NCBI RefSeq assembly: GCF_025359345.1
Contig: NZ_JANYGQ010000033.1
Span: forward strand, 62,001-126,000
Reading direction: 5' to 3'
Source: Mucilaginibacter sp.
GTDB taxonomy: Bacteria; Bacteroidota; Bacteroidia; Sphingobacteriales; Sphingobacteriaceae
DNA length: 64,000 nucleotides
Each line of letters starts with the position of its first letter. Positions within the stretch are counted from its first letter, which is position 1. Positions 1-64,000 of this stretch are shown here, in pieces. Made by a program: the position numbers and the translations under genes. A model generated the notes under the pieces. It did not search any database. It had not been told where the DNA came from and was given only the letters and a program-made list of their open reading frames with translations.

Positions 1-2078
1 CTTGCATTAGCCTCCTCTCTAAAATCTACCTGGTTGATCCTTTCTAAAAAAACGTTTATGATAGCTTTCCAGTCCGCCAGATCTCCGTTTTTGGCCACTG
101 TAGCAAAGCCATTGAAAACCGATTTGATAAACATTAGGGGAAGGGTCATCAGCAAGGGCAATCCTTCAATGAATTTTGCCGGGTCGCCGATAATATAATT
201 GATAACCAGTAGACCTAAACCGTCAACGGAAAAATCAAACTTGTCTTTCTTTTTATGCGCAGCAAGCCTGTCTACCAATTCTTGAACGGTTAATTTTTCA
301 AGTTCACCGGCATCGTCTGGGACCTCGTAGCCATGCGAAAAAGTAGAATAGCTATCGTACTCCGGATGTGGGTTATTTTCAGGGGACAGTTCACCATATT
401 TTTCAAGAAAAACTTTGAGGATGCCTTGCTGTTCACCACCTTCAGGATGCAGGGCAAATAAATATCTCTGGATCCTGTAAATTCGGTAATCATTTCTTTC
501 CTGTTCACTGAGATGCTCACTTTCCACCTTAATCGTTTCCAACCAGGAAAGGATAAAATTCAGTTCCTCCACTGAAAGCTGCGATGAAATCTCCGTAAGC
601 AAAAGGTAAAGCTCGTGTAATGGTAAAAGTGGGCTTAATGGACTTTTTTGAATGTAATCCCAGAACAGCGAAATCAGTTCTGCACGATCACTCCTTATCA
701 AATGAAATGCAATCCGATGTAGAATGATCGAATCGGAACCCATCAAAAAGCTGACCAGTTCCTTTTTGTCACCTGGTTGAAGCAGTTCCCCGCTTAAACT
801 GACAATATCGATCAGCTGATAAGACCAATCGCCATAAATGCCCGTACGTTGCTCCGAATCTTCGATGGACGGAATATTCTGGACCTCATAAGAATAATCC
901 TGGCCCAATGACTTTAAAATGTCAGCCAGTTGTTTGACGAGATCCAAGCCCGTTAATGCAATAACTTCCTTTAAGTTTTGCTTTAAAAACCAATGATTGG
1001 CGTCGCGGGTGTTTGGGATTACCCTGTTATTACTAAACTTGGCAAACTTTCCCTTAAGCGGCATCTTAAGATCATGCTTCCGGTAGCCAAATGTAAAATT
1101 CAGAACGTTCTGCACGCCTTCCGCCGATCCCATTTTGACGTACTTTTCAATCAGGTCCTCTGTCAATACGTTTTCGAAAACCACATGATCAATCGGCCAG
1201 TAATTTCCAAACGCGATCAAAAACTCGGAGTCCTCCTTTTGAAATAGGTAATTCGGAAGGTCGTTAATGATTTTGGTTACCAGGTAAATGGAGTTCTCAT
1301 CCAATAATACATTCCCTTTAATGACCGCTGCCTGAAGTTCCCTGATTATTTTAATAATCAGCTCTTCCTGCTTTTCATCAGCTTTCCCGGCAATGTTGGC
1401 TAAATACCGTAATGGCATCCATTCCGGAAAACGCATTGTACCTGGCTCAGACGGAAGCTGCCCCATCGGCAAAACCTTAAAAAAGCCTTGTTCATACAAG
1501 GGTAAAAGCCAGCCCGTTTTGTCAAGCGACTTATAAAATTGAAACTGGTTATTGATATCTTTTAAGAAATAAGGAAGTGTACCCAGCATTTCTTTGGTAG
1601 GTTCCTCAAATCCTACAAGGTGCGCAATCCGGTCCAGAAAAGCATACTGAGATCCCAACAGGTAATTCAGAATTTTCTCATACCCAGTCCATAGTTTGTT
1701 AAACTCCTTTAGCGTCCTGGTCTTTAATCCATGCCGGTGTGCGAACGATGGGAACTGTTTGGCGATGCTAAACCATTCATCTGCGAGCTGCTTGTTCTCA
1801 ACACCCATCGCCACCAAAATTGAGGCATAGTTACCACGGCCCTCTTTTGCCTCGGGATGCTCATCCGAAATCTCTTTCGGCGCGAAAATCTTTCTGAATG
1901 TGGAATCGATCTCCCTCGTTAAATGGGCGACCAGGTTCACCTTGGAGGTTAGCAAACAATCTTCATCCATGATCAATAAGGCATCCTGGAAAAAACCGGC
2001 TGCTTCATCACTTAATTGTTTTAATCCGGACAGGATATTTTCCTGTTCTTTGGTCAGTTTTTTTAGTCCTTTTAACAT
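1..2078 (-). CDS. Large uncharacterised protein, C-terminus beyond the left edge
   Basis: The frame stays open on the minus strand from an ATG at 2078 to the first base of the window, giving at least 692 residues with no stop, so the gene is real and incomplete. The protein starts MLKGLKKLTKEQENILSGLK and has no signal peptide or membrane segment. It looks largely helical and rich in Leu/Ile/Glu, in the manner of HEAT-like or other alpha-solenoid proteins. Recognisable local patterns are WLLPLYEQGFF near residue 180 followed by FPEWMPLRYL near residue 205. I do not recognise the family and see no nucleotide-binding or nuclease motif in the part present. It is divergent from the chimeric ORF at 2216 across 137 bases, so the two may share a control region. 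Small plus-strand ORFs inside it are shadows. Confidence 0.8.
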   Translation of the reverse strand, partial: MLKGLKKLTKEQENILSGLKQLSDEAAGFFQDALLIMDEDCLLTSKVNLVAHLTREIDSTFRKIFAPKEISDEHPEAKEGRGNYASILVAMGVENKQLADEWFSIAKQFPSFAHRHGLKTRTLKEFNKLWTGYEKILNYLLGSQYAFLDRIAHLVGFEEPTKEMLGTLPYFLKDINNQFQFYKSLDKTGWLLPLYEQGFFKVLPMGQLPSEPGTMRFPEWMPLRYLANIAGKADEKQEELIIKIIRELQAAVIKGNVLLDENSIYLVTKIINDLPNYLFQKEDSEFLIAFGNYWPIDHVVFENVLTEDLIEKYVKMGSAEGVQNVLNFTFGYRKHDLKMPLKGKFAKFSNNRVIPNTRDANHWFLKQNLKEVIALTGLDLVKQLADILKSLGQDYSYEVQNIPSIEDSEQRTGIYGDWSYQLIDIVSLSGELLQPGDKKELVSFLMGSDSIILHRIAFHLIRSDRAELISLFWDYIQKSPLSPLLPLHELYLLLTEISSQLSVEELNFILSWLETIKVESEHLSEQERNDYRIYRIQRYLFALHPEGGEQQGILKVFLEKYGELSPENNPHPEYDSYSTFSHGYEVPDDAGELEKLTVQELVDRLAAHKKKDKFDFSVDGLGLLVINYIIGDPAKFIEGLPLLMTLPLMFIKSVFNGFATVAKNGDLADWKAIINVFLERINQVDFREEANA

Positions 2079-2215: not shown

Positions 2216-4168
2216 ATGAAGTGGCCAATATTCCAAACTGATTTAGCCCTTGCAGCGTCACAGGACCTTTTCAGATATGTAGCCTCAGAAAAGCTCATCA
2301 AGTTAATTGACAACCAGCTGCTCACTACGCAGGTACTGGAAATCGATCCTAAGGAACAATATCCAGACGGGGGATATATCTATAACGCATCCTGGTTCTC
2401 GTTTTTTATAGCCGAAAGTTTGCTGAAGATTACTCCCGAACACAAAGCAAAATTTTTTGCCTTGCTTGCCGATTTTTATAGTCCGTTCGCGCAAATATTT
2501 GATGGGAAGGAAACCTTTACGGCCAACGAATCCACCTTCAATTTCTTCTTCCGCCTGCCTGACGAGCATATTTTAATGTTCCCGCTCGCACTTCAATCAG
2601 TTCAAAATCTGGTTAACCGGACCGAAATGATCCTGGATATCATCACCGGTATTTTATCGGGAAAAGACGAGCACAGATTGAATGAGATCAAGCAGGTCTA
2701 TGTACAAGATAATAAAGTAATATATCTGGTTTTTAATGGCGAAACATTCACTATCAGGGATCCGCTACAGGAAGCAGCCGACCGCTTCAATAAGCGGTAC
2801 ATGGAAAACACCGACAAGCGTGTTGCAAAACCAGATATTATTCTCCATGAAAGCAACCTTAACAAACGGTTTACCTTCAGCGCCAATTGGGTGCTGCAAT
2901 TTGACGGCCTGCATACCATGATGGTCAGGCCAAATGGCCTCAGTTTCATCACCGCTATTATTACCGGCAGTTATCCGGCACTCTACTTGTCGTCATTTAA
3001 ACCTGTAAAGGTATTGAAAGGGGCGTTCCGGGTGGGGCGGCTAGCTTCGGCCCCGCGTAAAGTACTGGTGGTACTTCAGTTTACCGTTTCCATTGTGCTG
3101 ATCATCGGAACCATTGTAGTTATCCGGCAGATACTTTTTGCCAAAGACCGCCCTGTAGGCTACAGCCAGGACAGATTGGTTGCAATACCCGTCCGGACTA
3201 TTGAACTCCACCAACATTTTGAGGCGATAAAACAGGCCCTTGCAAGTAACGGCACGATAACGGAAATGGCCGAAGCAGATGCTCCACCTAACAAACGTGC
3301 TGGTACTACCGGCGGCGTGGGATGGCCTGGAGAAGACCCTAACCTGGATGGCAATTTCGGCCAGGAGGATATTTCATACGATTATGGCAAAACCATTGGT
3401 TGGGAATTTAGCGCAGGCCGCGATTTCTCACCGTCATTCCCTTCCGATTCATCAGCGGTGATCATCAACCAGGCGGCAGCTGATTTTATGACCATGAAAA
3501 AACCGACAGAAAACTACATAACCTTTTATGGCCAGAAGTTTAAGATCGTAGGCGTAGCTAACAACACCATTAACCGGTCGCCTTATGAACAGGTGCAACC
3601 AATGGTTTATTTTTTAGCGAAATGGGCCGGAGGTTGTTTACTGCTAAAGATAAGTCCGAAAATGAGCGCCGGTAAAGCTATTCACAACATCGCTGCTGTT
3701 TTAAAAACCGAAAACCCGGAACAGCCATTTGAATATCACTTCGTTGACCAGGAATATGCTAAAGAATTCGGTGATGAGGAACGCCTGGGTAAGCTGGCTA
3801 CTGTTTTCGCCGGGCTGGCAATATTTATCAGCTGTCTCGGTTTGTTTGGCATGGCATCGTTCATGGCCGAACAGCGCATTAAAGAAATAGGTGTACGCAA
3901 GGTGCTTGGCGCTTCAGTGTTCGCCCTGTGGCAATTGCTATCGAAAGACTTTGCCATACTGGTGTTTTTGTCAATAATCATAGCCTCGCCTGTGGCTTAT
4001 TATTTTATGCACAACTGGCTGCGTAACTATCAGTATCACACCGATGTCGCCTGGTGGATATTTATCGTTACAGCTATTGGCGCTATACTCATCACATTAA
4101 TAACGGTAAGCTTCCAGGCCATAAAAGCCGCAATGGCAAACCCGATAAAAAGTTTGAAGACAGAATAA
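2216..4168 (+). CDS. Chimeric ORF: unknown N-terminus joined to C-terminal half of a MacB/FtsX-type ABC permease
   Basis: Residues 1 to about 240 are soluble-looking and match no family I know. From about residue 245 the protein abruptly becomes the second half of a Bacteroidota ABC transporter permease: the GSYPALYLSSFKPVKVLKG segment, a membrane helix near 283-305, a MacB-like periplasmic core at about 305-500, and three helices near 527-547, 578-598 and 610-633, with the FtsX-typical EIGVRKVLGAS loop between the first two of these. Full members of this family have about 790 residues with an N-terminal helix and a first periplasmic domain, both absent here. The join is in frame near 2935-2960. 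The product is therefore probably not a working exporter subunit. The start is the ATG at 2216, preceded by a -7-like TACCTTGC. The gene is a remnant fused to foreign coding sequence, possibly still expressed. Confidence 0.75.
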   Translation: MKWPIFQTDLALAASQDLFRYVASEKLIKLIDNQLLTTQVLEIDPKEQYPDGGYIYNASWFSFFIAESLLKITPEHKAKFFALLADFYSPFAQIFDGKETFTANESTFNFFFRLPDEHILMFPLALQSVQNLVNRTEMILDIITGILSGKDEHRLNEIKQVYVQDNKVIYLVFNGETFTIRDPLQEAADRFNKRYMENTDKRVAKPDIILHESNLNKRFTFSANWVLQFDGLHTMMVRPNGLSFITAIITGSYPALYLSSFKPVKVLKGAFRVGRLASAPRKVLVVLQFTVSIVLIIGTIVVIRQILFAKDRPVGYSQDRLVAIPVRTIELHQHFEAIKQALASNGTITEMAEADAPPNKRAGTTGGVGWPGEDPNLDGNFGQEDISYDYGKTIGWEFSAGRDFSPSFPSDSSAVIINQAAADFMTMKKPTENYITFYGQKFKIVGVANNTINRSPYEQVQPMVYFLAKWAGGCLLLKISPKMSAGKAIHNIAAVLKTENPEQPFEYHFVDQEYAKEFGDEERLGKLATVFAGLAIFISCLGLFGMASFMAEQRIKEIGVRKVLGASVFALWQLLSKDFAILVFLSIIIASPVAYYFMHNWLRNYQYHTDVAWWIFIVTAIGAILITLITVSFQAIKAAMANPIKSLKTE

Positions 4169-4456: not shown

Positions 4457-7400
4457 ATGAGAAAGGCCTGCTTAATTATACTTTGTATAATTTGTGAGAC
4501 AATTGCATATGCCCAGCAATCATATAACAGGAAGATTTTAAAATACTCCTCCAAAGATGGCCTTTCTTACGGTTTCGTAACAGGTATCGTACAGGATGAC
4601 AACGGTTTCATCTGGTTTGCTACCGAGGATGGGCTGAACAGGTTTGATGGTATAAATTTCAAAGTTTTTAAGCATAATGCGTCTAACCCGAATAGTTTAC
4701 CCAGTAATTATTTAGATTTCCTTTATAAGGATGCAGAGGGTGATATATGGCTGTCTACGCGGCAGGGTATTTACCAGTTTGACACCAATACCGAAAAGTA
4801 TGTAAAGTTTAAACAGGCGGCAAACATACTGGTAAACGATTTGACCAGTATTACTGCCGTAAAAAATACGGTATGGTTTTCTACTTACACCAGGGGTGTC
4901 TTTTCGTACAATAAAACCACCGGCATTTTTAAAAATTTTAACCTCAAAAATATTGAGCCGGCAATTTCTAACTCATCTACCTACGTCTACCAGGATTCGA
5001 AGGGATTATTGTGGGTTGGGGCCGAGACAACCACATCTGTTTTTAATACGAAAGGTGGACAGGTTAAAAAAAGTCTGAACAACCAAATGCCATTAAACCA
5101 GGTTCCGGCAGGGCGGGTGAATGCAATTACTGAAGATGAATTTTCGAACATTTGGATAGCAACAAATAAGGGCCTTGCAGTTTATAAAAGGGCTCAAAAC
5201 AAAATATTGGTATTTGAAGGCCCACGTTACCAAATGCGCAGTAACAATTTTTCATCGCTGCTCCAGGATAATGACCATAATTTGCTTATCGGCCTGCAGG
5301 ATGGAGGCCTTTACCGGCTCGACCTGCAAAAAGCAAACCAGACGGATTTTGAAAACGTATCCATCCAGCCGGTAAAAACCGACGACAATTTTACCGTAAC
5401 TGAACGTACCGTATTCAGGCTTTACATGGATAAGGATAAAAACGTATGGGCCGGTACCTATGGCGACGGTGTATATTTATTAGGTAATGTGCCGGGTATA
5501 TTCAAGAAGTTTCAGAATAAATTGCGGGACGCCAATAGCACGGGCTATTTACGGTACTATGGCATGTGTATGGACGATGAAGGGTATTTGTGGCTTGGCA
5601 CCGATGGAGACGGGATATACAAAAAGAAACTTAATGGCGAGGTTATTCAGCATTATTTTGCCGATGTTCCGGGTGCACCACTAAAGAACGTTGCTATTTT
5701 AGCCGCATACAAGTCGCGCAGCAATGATCTATGGTTCGGTTCGTACGCACACGGCTTATTTAAGTACGATAAAAAGACCGGTAATTTTACCAATTGGACG
5801 CATAACGCCAGCGACCCATCGAGCTTGTGCAGGAATGATGTACGAACTATTTTTGAAGATTTGGACGACAACATCTGGCTGGGTACAAATAATGGCGGCA
5901 TAAGTGTTCTGCCAAAAAACGGCACAAAATTTATTAACTATTCTACTGCCAACAACGCTTTACCCGGCAACAATATCAGGGCCATATGCGAGGACAATAC
6001 CGGAAAAATATACGTAGGCACTTATGGTAATGGCTTGCTTTGTTTTGATAAACAGCAACATAAATTTTCCGCTTGCTTCAGTAGTAGCCAGTTAGCAGCA
6101 TTTTTGCCAAGCAAGGTTATTTATTCACTTAAATGCTTCGGCAGTAAATTGATGATTGGAACGGAAAGCAACGGCCTTATTATTTATGATTTAGAAAGCA
6201 AAGGCATAAAACGGTTTATGGAAAGTGATGGGCTGGCAAATAATACCATAAACGCAATACAGCGCGACAGCAAGGGCAATATATGGGTAAGCACTAATAA
6301 GGGGCTGTCGAAAATTGAAAATAAAACGGGCAGCATTTTAAATTATGATGTTTCCAACGGTTTGCAGGCAGGGCATTTTAGCCCAAGTTCGTCTATGTAT
6401 AGCGCCCGGGATAACTTTATTTGCTTTGGTGGTACCGAGGGCTACAATATTTTTTTTCCGGATGATGTAAAAAGAAGCAATTTTAAGCCAAAGGTGCTGA
6501 TAACCGGCCTGCAATTATTTAACAAAGACGTAGAGGTCGGCGAAAAAGACCACATTTTAAGCAAGACGATTAACAAGGCAGATGAAATTGTTTTAAAACC
6601 CGACCAGTCAGTATTCTCTGTTCAATATGTAGCTTTAAACTACCCCTATTCAGACAAAAGCGAATTTGCATACCGTTTGGTAGGGTTAGATAAGAATTGG
6701 AATTACGTGAAAACGCAAAAGTCGGCCACCTATCGATACCTGGAACCCGGCACATATGTGTTTAAGGTTAAAGCATCCAACCAGGACGGTGTTTGGTTTG
6801 ATGATTATGCTGCAATAAACATTCGCATTTTACCGCCATGGTACAAAACATGGTATGCATGGTTATTTTATGTTTTATTTGCCATAGCGATGGTTTATTA
6901 CTACTTGCGCTATAAAAATAACCAGTCGAAGCTAAAGTACGACATCAGGCTGGCACATATAACAGCCGAACAGGAAAAAGAACTAAATGAGAAAAAGCTT
7001 TCATTTTTCACAAACATCTCGCACGAATACCGCACGCCGCTTACTTTAATTATAAATCCGCTAAAGCAATTGCTTGCAGATAAGGAAAATAGTCCCGGCG
7101 ATACAAACGCATTGAAAGTAGTTTACCGTAATGCAAAACGTTTGTTAAGCCTTACCGACCAATTGCTGCTTTTTAGGAAAGCAGACAGCGGCGGAGATAA
7201 GCTGACCATAGTAAAGCTTAATATTGTTGAGTTATGTAAAGAAGTAATCTTATACTTTGATTTCCAGGTAAAAACAAAGAATCTGCAAATCGAGTTTAAT
7301 AGCGACAATGCAGTAATTGAAGTTTATGCGGATCGGGGGAAAATTGAAATCGTGGTTTTTAATCTAATCTCGAATGCCATAAAATTCACCCCGGATAACG

Positions 7401-8611
7401 GTAAAATAAGCTGTGGGATTATTGAGGATAGAGACAGTGTAACTATCCGGATAAAAGATTCAGGATATGGCATAAGTAAGGAAATAGGCGAAAAGCTTTT
7501 TGACAGGTTCTTCCAGATCCAAAACATCAGCCAGTCGCACGGCGGCGGGTTTGGAATTGGCCTTTATCTCGTGAAAACATTTATCGACAATCACCAGGGC
7601 CGCATAGGTTATGAAAGCGAGGAAGCTAACGGCAGCACCTTCAGCGTTACCCTTTTAAAAGGCAAGAAACATTTTGGAGACAATTTGATCTTTGAAGATA
7701 CGACTGAACCTTCTATCTTCCTCGACGAGCTGATGGATGAAGAGGGGTTGATAACAGAAAGCGAGTACCTAAACCAGGTGCCGGCAGATGCTTATAATGC
7801 ATTGGTAAGTTCGAAAAAGGTATTGCTTATAATTGAAGATAACCCCGAGGTTAGGCAATACATTGTACAGATATTCAGCTACGAATACCACGTTTTTGAG
7901 GCAGATAATGCAAGCGACGGCTATAGTATGATTTGTGAGCTTATGCCAAGTTTAGTAATAAGCGATGTAATGATGAATGGCTTTAGCGGAATTGAACTTT
8001 GCAGCCGTGTAAAAGAAGATTCGGCTTTAAGCCACATTCCCTTTATTTTATTAACTGCAAATGCACTACCCGAAATAAAACTAAAGGGGATAGAATGCGG
8101 CGCTGACGACTATATAACAAAGCCATTTGAAAAAGAGGTGCTGGTTGCGAGGGTTAACGGACTGATAAAAAGCCATGAAAACCTGCATAAATATTTTTAT
8201 AATGCTATTACGCTAAAATCCAATGGTCACAAGATACCCGCTGAATACAAGGAGTTTCTGGAAAAATGTATAGCTATTGTTGAAAACCACCTGGAAGACG
8301 AGCAATTCAGTATTAAAAATCTGTCTGATGAAATAGGGATGAGCCATTCTAATCTTTACAAAAAAATTAAGGCCATATCGGGTAGGTCGGCAAATGAGTT
8401 TATCAGGTATATCAGGTTGCGCAAGGCTGCCGAACTGATGTTAAATTCTGACGTTACCGTGGCTGAAGCTGCTTATAAAGTTGGTATCAATAATGCCAAG
8501 TATTTCAGGGAGCAATTCAGCAAGCTGTTTGGCATGAATCCTTCAGAATATATAAAGAAACACCGGGGGCAATTCAGCCCGGCAGGTAAACGGTTTGTTA
8601 CAAAACTTTAG
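4457..8611 (+). CDS. Hybrid two-component system sensor kinase/response regulator (HTCS)
   Basis: A single-polypeptide glycan sensor and transcription factor that normally activates the neighbouring susCD locus when an oligosaccharide binds its periplasmic sensor. Seen in order: signal peptide (1-19), two-component regulator propeller repeats (about 30-690, with repeated IWFAT/LWLGT-type strands), a Y_Y_Y domain (about 700-790), a membrane helix (about 798-820), a HisKA box with His856 in FFTNISHEYRTPL, HATPase with N box near 965 and the GGGFGIGLYLV G box near 1035, a receiver domain (about 1120-1238) with Asp1170 in SDVMM and KPF near 1218, and an AraC-type HTH (about 1271-1371). The length of 1384 residues is normal for the family. 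It lies 421 bases upstream of the susC at 9033 in the same direction, which points to that operon as its target. Confidence 0.97.
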   Translation: MRKACLIILCIICETIAYAQQSYNRKILKYSSKDGLSYGFVTGIVQDDNGFIWFATEDGLNRFDGINFKVFKHNASNPNSLPSNYLDFLYKDAEGDIWLSTRQGIYQFDTNTEKYVKFKQAANILVNDLTSITAVKNTVWFSTYTRGVFSYNKTTGIFKNFNLKNIEPAISNSSTYVYQDSKGLLWVGAETTTSVFNTKGGQVKKSLNNQMPLNQVPAGRVNAITEDEFSNIWIATNKGLAVYKRAQNKILVFEGPRYQMRSNNFSSLLQDNDHNLLIGLQDGGLYRLDLQKANQTDFENVSIQPVKTDDNFTVTERTVFRLYMDKDKNVWAGTYGDGVYLLGNVPGIFKKFQNKLRDANSTGYLRYYGMCMDDEGYLWLGTDGDGIYKKKLNGEVIQHYFADVPGAPLKNVAILAAYKSRSNDLWFGSYAHGLFKYDKKTGNFTNWTHNASDPSSLCRNDVRTIFEDLDDNIWLGTNNGGISVLPKNGTKFINYSTANNALPGNNIRAICEDNTGKIYVGTYGNGLLCFDKQQHKFSACFSSSQLAAFLPSKVIYSLKCFGSKLMIGTESNGLIIYDLESKGIKRFMESDGLANNTINAIQRDSKGNIWVSTNKGLSKIENKTGSILNYDVSNGLQAGHFSPSSSMYSARDNFICFGGTEGYNIFFPDDVKRSNFKPKVLITGLQLFNKDVEVGEKDHILSKTINKADEIVLKPDQSVFSVQYVALNYPYSDKSEFAYRLVGLDKNWNYVKTQKSATYRYLEPGTYVFKVKASNQDGVWFDDYAAINIRILPPWYKTWYAWLFYVLFAIAMVYYYLRYKNNQSKLKYDIRLAHITAEQEKELNEKKLSFFTNISHEYRTPLTLIINPLKQLLADKENSPGDTNALKVVYRNAKRLLSLTDQLLLFRKADSGGDKLTIVKLNIVELCKEVILYFDFQVKTKNLQIEFNSDNAVIEVYADRGKIEIVVFNLISNAIKFTPDNGKISCGIIEDRDSVTIRIKDSGYGISKEIGEKLFDRFFQIQNISQSHGGGFGIGLYLVKTFIDNHQGRIGYESEEANGSTFSVTLLKGKKHFGDNLIFEDTTEPSIFLDELMDEEGLITESEYLNQVPADAYNALVSSKKVLLIIEDNPEVRQYIVQIFSYEYHVFEADNASDGYSMICELMPSLVISDVMMNGFSGIELCSRVKEDSALSHIPFILLTANALPEIKLKGIECGADDYITKPFEKEVLVARVNGLIKSHENLHKYFYNAITLKSNGHKIPAEYKEFLEKCIAIVENHLEDEQFSIKNLSDEIGMSHSNLYKKIKAISGRSANEFIRYIRLRKAAELMLNSDVTVAEAAYKVGINNAKYFREQFSKLFGMNPSEYIKKHRGQFSPAGKRFVTKL

Positions 8612-60106: not shown

Positions 60107-61537
60107 CTATCTTTTCTCCATCAACTCAAAACTATCTTTATCGGCATCGCAAACCGGGCATGTATAAGTGTCAATATCTGCAAAAGCAGTGCCGGCTGGT
60201 ATGGTGTTTAGTTCATCGCCGTAAGCTTTATCATAAACGGTTAAACAGTGCCTGCATTGGTAAAGCACGTCTACGTTTGCAGGCAAGTCTTCAGCCTCTT
60301 TAACCAAAGGGGCTACAATTTTTGTTTTGCTTTGCGACAATTGATAATAGCTGTTGCATAAATCAATTAACTGCTCCACCAGGTTTTGCGCTTTAACCCT
60401 CTTTTTATAGGAAATGTAATTTTTTGAGTTCGGGTTAAAATCTGCCGTATGTAACACCTCGAAATTACCCGATGGTTGTGTTTTTATAATTATCGACCCC
60501 AGCAAACCGGTTTTGGATTGCGTTTTAATAGCAAAGCTTAAACGGTAGGTTCGCAAATCGGCCTTTTCAAATTCGCGTACCAGGTGCTGCTTCAACGTAA
60601 GCCCTTCTTCGCACATATCTTCTATTTGCCAGTTTAACTCGTTCGAGGCATGCCTTACGTTTAGACGGTATCTATCCAGGATAAAACCCCAGTCGTTGCG
60701 GTCGCCGGGATTTATGCCTTTTATCAAAATTGATTTCCAGGGCGTGGTATATAGTTGCCCTATCCTTGTTTCAAGACAAAGGCTGCATACTTCTTTTAAA
60801 AACGAAATTTCGAAAAGTTCATTGCGGCGATAAACACCCAGCCAGTATTTGTTATCGTATTTATTAAAACCTTCGTAATAAGGCAAGTAAAAATCGGGCA
60901 ATTGTAATGGTACAGTCATCGGCTGCATATGTGTAGCTGTCCCTTTGGTCACCATATCAAAAAAAAGCTGCTCATCGATATCCGGCATGTCGTAAAACAG
61001 GGCCCTGTTTTTCAGGATAACTTCTTCGGCCTTTTTACTGATAACAGGTATATCATTTGAATAAATAAGCGAAGGCCAGCAGTAAAACTGGCTAGTCTTA
61101 GGGAACCGGACATGCAAATACCAGTAGTTGCTTACATCTGAGCTGATAAAATTAAAGTTGCCGCCAAAAAACGGTACAAAAGTTTGATGCCGGTCTACCA
61201 GGTTTATTTTTAGCCGGGGTTGATAACTAAAGAGGTCGAAAATATCTTTGTATACACCTTCTCTCAACCAACTTTCCTGGCTAAAAATAGTATCGCAAAC
61301 ATAAGAACTGATGACGTTGGGATACTTATCTGCATTAATCTCATAAACAATGCCGGCCTGCAACATTTCCATCTCCATGTCTTCCAGTTCACTACCCGAA
61401 ATGGAAAAAAATAGTTGTTGCCGGTTGCCGAAGCGGATGTGTTGTGCGCCAGCGTTTTCGGCAATTACTAATATCTCGTAAAGGTCACCGGCCGATACAA
61501 CGCCCCCAGGCAAGTTTATTTTAATTAAGTACTCCAT
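60107..61537 (-). CDS. Nitrite/sulfite reductase-like protein without siroheme cysteines, with C-terminal rubredoxin domain
   Basis: The open frame extends to 61642, but the ATG at 61537 overlaps the upstream stop as TGATG and begins the recognisable domain, so I choose it (476 residues). The N-terminal region (LPGGVVSAGDLYEILVIAE, HIRFGNRQQLFFSI) resembles the ferredoxin-like half domain of nitrite/sulfite reductases. The usual C-x5-C and C-x3-C ligands of the iron-sulfur/siroheme centre are absent; the only pair before the C-terminus is in EVCSLCLE. The last 50 residues are a rubredoxin with Cys428, Cys431, Cys460 and Cys463. It is probably an electron-transfer or assembly partner of the nitrate reductase. 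Catalysis of nitrite reduction is unlikely without siroheme ligands. Confidence 0.8.
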   Translation of the reverse strand: MEYLIKINLPGGVVSAGDLYEILVIAENAGAQHIRFGNRQQLFFSISGSELEDMEMEMLQAGIVYEINADKYPNVISSYVCDTIFSQESWLREGVYKDIFDLFSYQPRLKINLVDRHQTFVPFFGGNFNFISSDVSNYWYLHVRFPKTSQFYCWPSLIYSNDIPVISKKAEEVILKNRALFYDMPDIDEQLFFDMVTKGTATHMQPMTVPLQLPDFYLPYYEGFNKYDNKYWLGVYRRNELFEISFLKEVCSLCLETRIGQLYTTPWKSILIKGINPGDRNDWGFILDRYRLNVRHASNELNWQIEDMCEEGLTLKQHLVREFEKADLRTYRLSFAIKTQSKTGLLGSIIIKTQPSGNFEVLHTADFNPNSKNYISYKKRVKAQNLVEQLIDLCNSYYQLSQSKTKIVAPLVKEAEDLPANVDVLYQCRHCLTVYDKAYGDELNTIPAGTAFADIDTYTCPVCDADKDSFELMEKR

Positions 61538-64000
61538 CAGGCTACATTTTGAGAAACCAGGTTTTTCAATCCTTCTGCCAGCAGGCGCTTCACCTCGGGC
61601 CGGCATGAACCGCACCCGGTACCGGCACCGGTGGCCGAACACAGGTCTTTCATATTATCGCAGCCACCAGCAATTTTTTTGTTGATATTTTCGCTGCCTA
61701 CATTATTGCAACTGCATACCAGTTTGCCCAATACCGGGTCTGCTTTGCTGCCGTTGCGTAATAGTTGCAGGCGCTTTTCACTCAGTTCGGTTTTGTTGGC
61801 AATTAATTCCTTAAACTCCAGGAACTCACTTTTATCCCCAATTAATATAGTGCCCACCAGTTTGTCCTGGTGAATGATGCATTTTTTATAATAGCGCTTG
61901 GCCTTATCAATAAAAACAACTTCTTCATAGCCCGGTTCATCGGGGCATTCTGGCAAGCCTATGCTGCAAAGGTCGAAACCGTGTATTTTTATAATATTCA
62001 TGAACAGGCTGCCTTTATAATAACTGGCAATGTCGCCGTTCATGTAACCGGCAACAACAGCTGCCTGCTGTTCGGCGGCAGCGGTAATGCCATATAAGGT
62101 GCCTTCAAATTCGGCAATCTCGCCTATCGCGTAAATATCCGGGTCACTGGTTTGCAGGCGCTCGTTTACAACCACACCACGTTTGCATTCCAAACCACAG
62201 TCGCGGGCAAGCTCAAGGTTGGGCGTGGTTCCTATGGCAAGAATCATCGCATCGCAGTCGATCTTACGTCCGCTGCGCAAGGCAATACCGGTTAGTTTTG
62301 ATCGCCCATAATACAATTGCACCTCGTCATCGTAGTAAATATCGCATTCCTGGTCAACCATTTCTTCGTGCAGCAATTTACTCCCCAGGGCATCTAACTG
62401 CCGGTTTAAAAAACTGGAAGTCCGTTGAATAATAGTTATCCTGATTCCCATTTCGCGCAATGATGCCGCCATTTCAAGCCCGAGTAAGCCACCACCAACA
62501 ATTACTACATGCCCGTTTTTTTTGATATGTTTTTTAAAATTATCAGCATCGGTACGGCTACGCATCGTGAATATACCGGGCAGTGAGGGCACATTTTTAG
62601 GGATGGCTGCCCGGCTGCCGGTGGCCATAATCAGCACGTCATATGGTGTTTTAATACCCCTCGAATCGGTAACATATTTTGTTTCACGGTCTATCTTTAC
62701 TACACTTACGCCCCGCAGTAAATTAATGCGATACGCAGGTTCTTCGGAGTCCTTCATCTTCACCAATTGCTCCCATTGCTGTTCGCCGCTGATATAATCA
62801 GGCAGCATCACCCGGTTATAAAACGGAAAATTTTCCTTGCTGAAAATGGTAATACGGTCGGCAGAATTCAGTTCCCGGTACGATTTTACAAAACCATAAG
62901 CACCTGCCCCCGCACCAATAATTACAACACGCTGAAAGGGCTTTTTATACTTGGCAATATTAACTGCGCAGTATTTAAAGTCGGGTTCTTTCGATATGGG
63001 GTCGACCGCATCATTGGTGATATTATTCACCCGGTGCAGGTCGTTACCCAGTATTTTCCCCCAGTGCATCGGTAAGAACACGACGCCCGGCTTAATTTGA
63101 GTTGTTACTTTTGCTTTCACCCGCACCTCGCCACGTCGCGAAGTTATTACCGTAACGTCACCCTCTTTTATTTGCAGGCCGGCAGCATCATAGGGGTTTA
63201 TTTCAATAAACGATTCCTTTAGGTGCTGGGTTAGCTTATTTACCTTGCCCGTTTTGCTCATGGTATGCCACTGGTCGCGGATGCGGCCGGTGGTTAATAT
63301 GAATGGATAGTCATCGTCGGGCAACTCGCTGGTAAACGCATCAGGCACGGCATGTATTATGGCATTTTGCGATGGGGTGAAGAATTTTTTATCGGCAAAA
63401 AGGCGTTCAGTGCCGCCGGGTTTGCTTTTCTTTTTATAAGGCCATTGTACCGAAGATTGCTCTTTCAGTACCTCATAACTTAATCCGCTGATATCAATAT
63501 TTGTTTTTGCCGTTAGCTTAACATGCTCAGCATAAATTTCGGAACTGTTTTTAAAGTCAAACCCATGGTAGCCCATCTTGCGGGCAAAACGGCAAATAAT
63601 TTCAGCATCGGGCAGGGCCTCGCCGGGCGGCTCAATAATTTTATTCAGGTAACTGATGCGCCTTTCAGAATTGGTCATGGTGCCCTCTTTTTCAGCCCAG
63701 GCAGCGGCGGGCAGTATCACATCGGCATAAGCCAAAGTTTCGGGTTTACTGCTCACTTCCTGCACCACTACAAATTTGGCTTTCTTTAATGCCTGCTCAG
63801 CCAAACGTACATTAGGTAAACTGGTGAGCGGGTTGGTGCACATTATCCAGATGGCTTTTAACCTGCCATCATTCAAAGCCTCAAACATTTCAGTGGCCGT
63901 TAAACCTGGTTCGGGGTTAATGCTCGTGCCCTTCCAAAACTTCTGTACCTCTTCCCGGTGCAGCGGGTTTTTTAGGTCGCGATGTGCGGGCAGCAGGTTT
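61537..64000 (-). CDS. Nitrate reductase catalytic subunit fused to NirB-like FAD reductase and BFD-like [2Fe-2S] domain; N-terminus beyond right edge
   Basis: The frame is open to the window end, so only the last 820 residues are present. The first part is the molybdopterin oxidoreductase of assimilatory nitrate reductases (AHRDLKNPLHREEVQKFW, IMCTNPLTSLPNVR, VILPAAAWAEKEGTMTNSER), then the dinucleotide-binding domain (ILTTGRIRDQWHTMSKTGK, VFLPMHWG). From RVVIIGAGAGAYGF, near residue 355, it is a NirB-type FAD/NAD(P)H reductase with a second GxGxxG (VIVGGGLLGLEMA) and an FAD-binding DIYAIGEIAEFEG. It ends with a BFD-like cluster domain (LVCSCNNVG..CGSC). NAD(P)H could thus feed the Mo centre within one chain. 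The gene is translationally coupled to the next by TGATG. Confidence 0.93.
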   Translation of the reverse strand, partial: NLLPAHRDLKNPLHREEVQKFWKGTSINPEPGLTATEMFEALNDGRLKAIWIMCTNPLTSLPNVRLAEQALKKAKFVVVQEVSSKPETLAYADVILPAAAWAEKEGTMTNSERRISYLNKIIEPPGEALPDAEIICRFARKMGYHGFDFKNSSEIYAEHVKLTAKTNIDISGLSYEVLKEQSSVQWPYKKKSKPGGTERLFADKKFFTPSQNAIIHAVPDAFTSELPDDDYPFILTTGRIRDQWHTMSKTGKVNKLTQHLKESFIEINPYDAAGLQIKEGDVTVITSRRGEVRVKAKVTTQIKPGVVFLPMHWGKILGNDLHRVNNITNDAVDPISKEPDFKYCAVNIAKYKKPFQRVVIIGAGAGAYGFVKSYRELNSADRITIFSKENFPFYNRVMLPDYISGEQQWEQLVKMKDSEEPAYRINLLRGVSVVKIDRETKYVTDSRGIKTPYDVLIMATGSRAAIPKNVPSLPGIFTMRSRTDADNFKKHIKKNGHVVIVGGGLLGLEMAASLREMGIRITIIQRTSSFLNRQLDALGSKLLHEEMVDQECDIYYDDEVQLYYGRSKLTGIALRSGRKIDCDAMILAIGTTPNLELARDCGLECKRGVVVNERLQTSDPDIYAIGEIAEFEGTLYGITAAAEQQAAVVAGYMNGDIASYYKGSLFMNIIKIHGFDLCSIGLPECPDEPGYEEVVFIDKAKRYYKKCIIHQDKLVGTILIGDKSEFLEFKELIANKTELSEKRLQLLRNGSKADPVLGKLVCSCNNVGSENINKKIAGGCDNMKDLCSATGAGTGCGSCRPEVKRLLAEGLKNLVSQNVA

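Follow-up and report, generated by a model that had tools for sequence, protein, structure and literature searches.

An open frame of 650 codons in a Mucilaginibacter sp. genome raises the question of whether two unrelated genes have been joined into one reading frame, and by what event. The frame lies in the stretch of DNA analysed here, which we call the window (64,000 nucleotides, contig C22:62001-126000), and the genome (G000) is a draft of 6.9 Mb in 38 contigs that is 99.38% complete. A preliminary description had proposed an in-frame chimera with its join somewhere between positions 2935 and 2960, and had taken this join for a recombination or island boundary. We found that the frame is open throughout and that two unrelated proteins meet at codons 240/241, which places the join at the low edge of the proposed range (Table 1). 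When the two parts were aligned separately, residues 1–240 were assigned to one protein family and residues 241–650 to an unrelated permease, and the hybrid architecture was present in none of the other genomes searched. As judged from these alignments, the frame is a genuine chimera of two unrelated genes; it was seen in this genome alone among those searched and adjoins an integrase island, in agreement with the boundary originally proposed.

Table 1 Features at and around the join (window positions).
Feature	Position	Strand	Basis
Start-proximal part of DSR1-like gene, island cargo	1..2078	-	PADLOC Dsr1 model
Hybrid ORF, 650 aa	2216..4168	+	Open reading frame
N-terminal 240 aa (front half) of a rare family of Bacteroidota proteins, ~448-466 aa (lost back half HEPN-like)	2216..2935	+	Homology ends at R-P-N
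Inverted repeat AGGCC-AAAT-GGCCT	2927..2940		Created by join
Join; TG (about 2 bp) derivable from either parent	2935..2936	+	Parent comparison
Back half (about residues 385-793 of 793) of FtsX/MacB-type two-unit permease	2936..4168	+	Domain and ortholog alignment
Hybrid two-component sensor gene	4457..8611	+	Intact permease in sister G073 precedes same gene

The front half belongs to a family that a search with a single sequence can miss. Residues 1–241 matched no Pfam model above cut-off (best E 0.26) and no NCBIfam model; a PADLOC REase_II match (E 0.017) was dropped as marginal and absent from the five relatives scanned. Among 60 relatives searched with the front half only the source genome itself matched, and a scan of named genomes with the single 241-aa sequence returned no match, although such misses are weak evidence because an alignment of three members later found 12 loci that had been missed before. 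Across 400 genomes of the order, six matched the front half: the source genome, four strong matches (E below 1e-31 over residues 1–240, in four of the 399 other genomes), and one weak partial match. The latter (G294; E 3.6e-4, residues 109–212, two stops) was taken for chance, and the three frames inspected there by eye lack the family. Intact proteins of 450–464 aa are encoded in G370, G261, and G365; the copy in G155, a member of the same genus, is broken by an internal stop into two frame pieces (220 and 229 residues), the same as in Mucilaginibacter sp. OK268. The 12 named loci recovered with the three intact members include Pedobacter soli, Pedobacter sp. KBW06, Lacinutrix (Lacinutrix neustonica), and Flavobacterium (Flavobacterium flevense), with Tamlana, Dokdonia, and Aquimarina as further genera, and three of these 12 loci look broken. 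Nine loci (L092–L099 and L101) were taken into the family alignment and fold; three were left out, namely L091 for an in-frame stop, L100 because its frame is split, and L102 because the place has no listed open frame of 110 aa, and L081 was included in the 10-member alignment only.

Residues 1–240 of the hybrid align end to end with the N-terminal domain of this family at about 30% identity, in an alignment with 10 full-length members, and the start of the hybrid aligns with the starts of its relatives. Homology stops at R-P-N (N240), after which the next residue is D in 10/10 full-length rows and G in the hybrid. The family profile, which includes the window row, matched the window protein at E 6.3e-83; against the whole of G000 it found only profile positions 1–252, and hence no HEPN half. 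No front half was found in plasmids, no full-length member (searched as L092) in phages, no exact join in viral contigs, and no solved structure when the family was searched by sequence. Compared with the ~448–466 aa family, then, the hybrid has the N-terminal domain and lacks the HEPN-like half.

This lost half carries R-x4-H, in the form R(N/D)xxIH, in 10/10 full-length members (R370 and H375 in L092); after N240 the hybrid has neither the C-terminal domain nor the motif. In the passages that define the HEPN superfamily motif, it is given as Rx4-6H with a polar residue after the arginine (PMC3710099), and this is the pattern seen in all 10 full-length members. A predicted structure of L092 (from 10 rows; mean pLDDT 68.8, pTM 0.51) places the motif at the end of helix 360–374. 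Re-alignment of PDB chains to this model with VIA-align gave 19 rows with Z 8.0–10.5 over residues 240–422, of which 11 are titled HEPN, and we take most of the remainder to be HEPN proteins as well. The next rows (Csm6, Dfer_2879, and a designed binder, the last at 7.7) stand at Z 7.7–7.8; because unrelated helical bundles can reach Z values of this size, a HEPN fold for the back half of the family is likely on the predicted model but not proven. Foldseek searches with the same model were not significant (best E 0.27, with a HEPN toxin in fifth place), PADLOC CARF-HEPN matches over the motif were marginal (E 0.0028–0.028, in three of five members), HEPN models in Pfam matched none of the five members scanned, and NCBIfam matched none of six. 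The lost half thus shares R(N/D)xxIH with HEPN RNases such as the MNT-HEPN toxins and Csm6/Csx1, and HEPN chains are its best VIA-align rows, but the sequence matches of the family are marginal and its N-domain fits no library model convincingly. The HEPN-like domain may be an RNase.

Behind the join, the hybrid is the back half of a permease. Residues 530–643 matched Pfam FtsX (PF02687; E 1.5e-12), MacB_PCD (PF12704) at residues 379–454 was sub-threshold (22.1 bits vs a cut-off of 27), and the best NCBIfam model for this half, TIGR03434 ADOP, scored 159.5 bits, far under its cut-off of 622.3. The source genome matches the hybrid ORF in 75 places, and the long matches mostly start at query residue 227–248, usually within frames of 720–1242 aa. 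Close orthologs in the genus share 96% DNA identity in the sister genome G073 and 87–92% in 17 others (one partial), and residues 242–650 share 86–98% identity with the back halves of 17 orthologs from the genus. In 8/8 relatives compared, DNA homology begins sharply at window 2932–2935; to the left of this point, the only one of their permease loci to match is L040, through 0.45 kb of integrase DNA that stands there to the right of the permease. The permease of G073 is 793 aa long, and its front half is present in 19/19 of the closest loci (L020–L038, of which L020 is the query's own source and L038 only 73% alike): 18 match over residues 1–793, and L037 matches over 1–614, where its stretch ends. 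The loss of some 390 N-terminal residues noted in the preliminary description is borne out, about 385 being absent, and these make up the first of two FtsX units. In a simple hydropathy scan the hybrid has four hydrophobic segments vs eight in the G073 ortholog, a count that takes two overlapping windows as one, and a segment straddling the join drops below threshold in the hybrid. Measured against two-unit FtsX/MacB-type permeases, the hybrid retains the common back half with its C-terminal FtsX domain, but it does not have two units with eight transmembrane segments, and an alien soluble domain stands in place of the first unit.

The preliminary description had suggested looking for the missing permease front at the far end of an island; it was not found in the genome, and no reciprocal island end was recovered. 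The matches in G000 are limited to paralog stretches (67–77% identity, up to 692 bases) and two short matches (36 bases at 92% and 48 bases at 81%).

At the join position the sequence is ...GGAATTGGCCTCAG... or a variant of it in the orthologous permeases, AATGA or AACGA (at the N-D codons) in seven relatives of the front-half gene, and CCAAATGGCCTCAG in the window. The two parents have at most about two bases (TG) in common at this point, which therefore suggests illegitimate rather than homologous recombination. The inverted repeat AGGCC-AAAT-GGCCT that had been noted beside the join is present at the position reported for it, but a role in the recombination does not follow from it. Its left arm comes from the front-half gene and its right arm from the permease, and the join therefore made the repeat. 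The right arm GGCCT occurs without the left arm in 14/18 orthologous permease loci and is missing from G073 (GGTCT there), G155, G116, and G077. Although the expected count of this exact form in the window is 0.03, the form was picked out afterwards, and perfect hairpins with 5-bp arms and loops of 3–8 are common (466 in the window, covering 8.7% of it).

To the left of the join lies DNA with the marks of an integrated island. A tRNA-Glu (L011:13621-13693) and a tyrosine integrase (L011:13943-15157) are located left of the window, 6–7 kb from the join, together with an ORF6N gene. A 113-codon fragment (L011:15956-16297; C22:59956-60297) matches the start of the LmuA and ThsA PADLOC models (E 1e-7 to 5e-7) and no Pfam SIR2 model, and this SIR2-like fragment is apparently a broken gene. 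The minus-strand gene next to the hybrid encodes a DSR1-like protein of 1078 aa overall, starting at window 2078 and running left to C22:60842, which matches PADLOC Dsr1 over profile positions 319–1225 of 1227 in two overlapping pieces; unlike DSR1 it has no SIR2 NADase domain, neither part matching a Pfam SIR2 model. Among its relatives, the G147 copy follows an integrase-like ORF (by eye) and the G005 copy follows a separate SIR2_2 gene, an arrangement of sequences that suggests a split two-gene form.

From the join rightwards, the sister genome G073 stays colinear with G000 at 94% over at least 22 kb, the limit of the stretch retrieved. To the left, the tRNA-Glu flank and integrase match G073 at 93% on another contig, after which the DNA differs, and the 5 kb from C22:59858 to 64932 are matched by none of the G073 stretches compared. 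The tRNA-Glu flank is carried by 8/8 chosen genomes, and it is linked to the permease in only two of them: G131 and G155 have both features, equally oriented, on a single contig with about 31 and 58 kb between them. Megabases separate flank and permease in G156 and G077, each a one-contig genome; G073, G128, and G107 have them on separate contigs; and G147 has no close permease ortholog among the matches listed. The right end of the island was not found. A search of G000 for the sister DNA that lies right of the integrase and left of the permease recovered nothing beyond an edge of 109 bases, stretches of paralogs, and dispersed repeats. One dispersed repeat, at L039:6868-7105, accounts for 40/45 matches listed in G000, at least six of which are 209–238 bases long at 75–82% (40 of 134 candidates scored).

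In G073, 27 ORFs were picked from the integrase to the contig end and from the start of the other contig to the permease, and 25 were scanned, the two largest being left out; they match PADLOC families such as PtuA, PDC-M01, PDC-M62, and Avs3b, where many models overlap and the matches are given for the set of ORFs as a whole. ORFs with PADLOC defence matches abound in both G073 intervals, the one to the left of the intact permease (L104, L039) and the one to the right of the integrase (L068, L103). The corresponding intervals in G155 and G131 (37 and 16 ORFs, Pfam only) hold mixed metabolic, mobile, and some defence-type genes. A nitrate-reductase-type cluster (molybdopterin oxidoreductase, rubredoxin reductase) occupies window 60404-63993, ~57 kb right of the join, and has a 72% match in G131 ~5 kb right of the tRNA-Glu flank.

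With good confidence, we regard the hybrid as the probable scar of an illegitimate deletion that ran from island cargo into the permease. An island at the tRNA-Glu, with its integrase, would have carried a defence-type gene composed of the N-terminal domain and the HEPN-like domain, oriented the same way as an FtsX/MacB-type permease of the chromosome, which lay to its right. Deletion between sites that share about 2 bp would then have taken the HEPN half, the intervening DNA, and the first ~385 permease codons, and the remaining parts would have been fused in frame by chance. Sequence comparison identifies both parents and a sharp join, recovers neither missing half in the genome, and finds the join in none of the other genomes searched. 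Because neither missing half was recovered elsewhere in G000, the material was probably lost and not exchanged, with the caveat that gaps between the 38 draft contigs could hide such a half. We infer that the loss happened as one single deletion. The 5 kb without a G073 counterpart mean that the pre-deletion state is not seen, and the event may instead have been a translocation with loss, given that the flank and permease are linked in just 2/8 genomes and megabases apart in G156 and G077. A deletion is nonetheless the simplest reading of the join.

One may postulate that the join created a working protein, in which a defence-type N-domain sits at the cytoplasmic face of a one-unit MacB-like module and is useful in, for example, membrane sensing. 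The frame is kept, the kept half forms one unit with four hydrophobic segments, the hybrid start matches the starts of relatives in the alignment, and in the L092 model the join falls after the final strand of the N-domain, which extends to 239, and before the first helix of the following domain, which begins at 245, in a low-confidence region with pLDDT under 50 (225–243). We nevertheless consider a working chimera improbable: the hybrid occurs in one genome only, the R-x4-H site is lost, the hydrophobic segment across the join is below threshold, and the hybrid has no measurable constraint of its own. Base changes in the permease half, polarised against 16 orthologs, numbered 14 synonymous and 5 nonsynonymous on the G000 branch, against 22 synonymous and 4 nonsynonymous on that of G073, with one more unassigned (Fisher p 0.46); the count is rough, L037 and L038 being left out and codons 308 and 368 counted twice. 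These counts show neither relaxation nor continued constraint, and the fusion may be too young for a substitution signal; there is no sign of conservation or selection of the hybrid, since its counts do not differ from those of its sister. Having lost the R-x4-H site of one parent and half of the other, the hybrid would retain the activity of neither and be a by-product at most. The more specific scenario, in which the hybrid is expressed and used such that a half-size MacB-like module now directs the sensing domain of an antiphage HEPN protein to the membrane, appears very doubtful, although if true it would mean that a defence protein was rebuilt through a single deletion. Most likely the hybrid is a scar private to this genome rather than a new functional protein, and this scar may still be transcribed.

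It is also quite unlikely that the assembler misjoined two unlinked pieces of the genome. The draft state of the assembly and the distance between the two sides of the join in G156 and G077 would be compatible with such an artefact, but there is no N in the window or in L011, neither side is a repeat (there is a single genomic match for the front half), and the next listed match of the permease half to DNA of its own genome reaches just 73%. The join is moreover in frame and shares about 2 bp, which is too short for an assembler overlap. Misassembly is therefore unlikely, because the join is without repeats and without N. Least likely of all is a site-specific recombination event that inserted a mobile element in the permease, the join being the attachment site of that element: a tyrosine integrase and tRNA-Glu do lie nearby to the left, but the 3′ end of the tRNA-Glu, searched as a 20-base piece, has a single occurrence in the genome (up to one mismatch), a 23-base piece of it is absent from the window (up to three mismatches; a shorter core would escape), no att repeat of these two lengths stands at the join, the permease front was found neither on the other side of the island nor elsewhere, and the join cuts a coding gene on both sides.

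The deletion scar is a clean case of gene fusion through DNA loss at an island edge, with both parents identified. The family from which the front half was derived has no model above cut-off in Pfam or NCBIfam, and its PADLOC matches are marginal only. Among the single loci scanned, L091 has a tyrosine integrase nearby; L097 has HipA, a DUF5712 protein, and a coupling protein of the TrwB/TraG type; and L081 has a SMODS-associated 4TM effector. Several others of L094–L100 and L102 have similar neighbours (by eye). Because its members lie near an integrase, mobilisation genes, HipA, and a SMODS-associated effector and are often broken, the ~448–466 aa family is a candidate defence or toxin family. 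In evolutionary terms the fusion itself is ordinary, and it is the HEPN-like family that deserves a second look.
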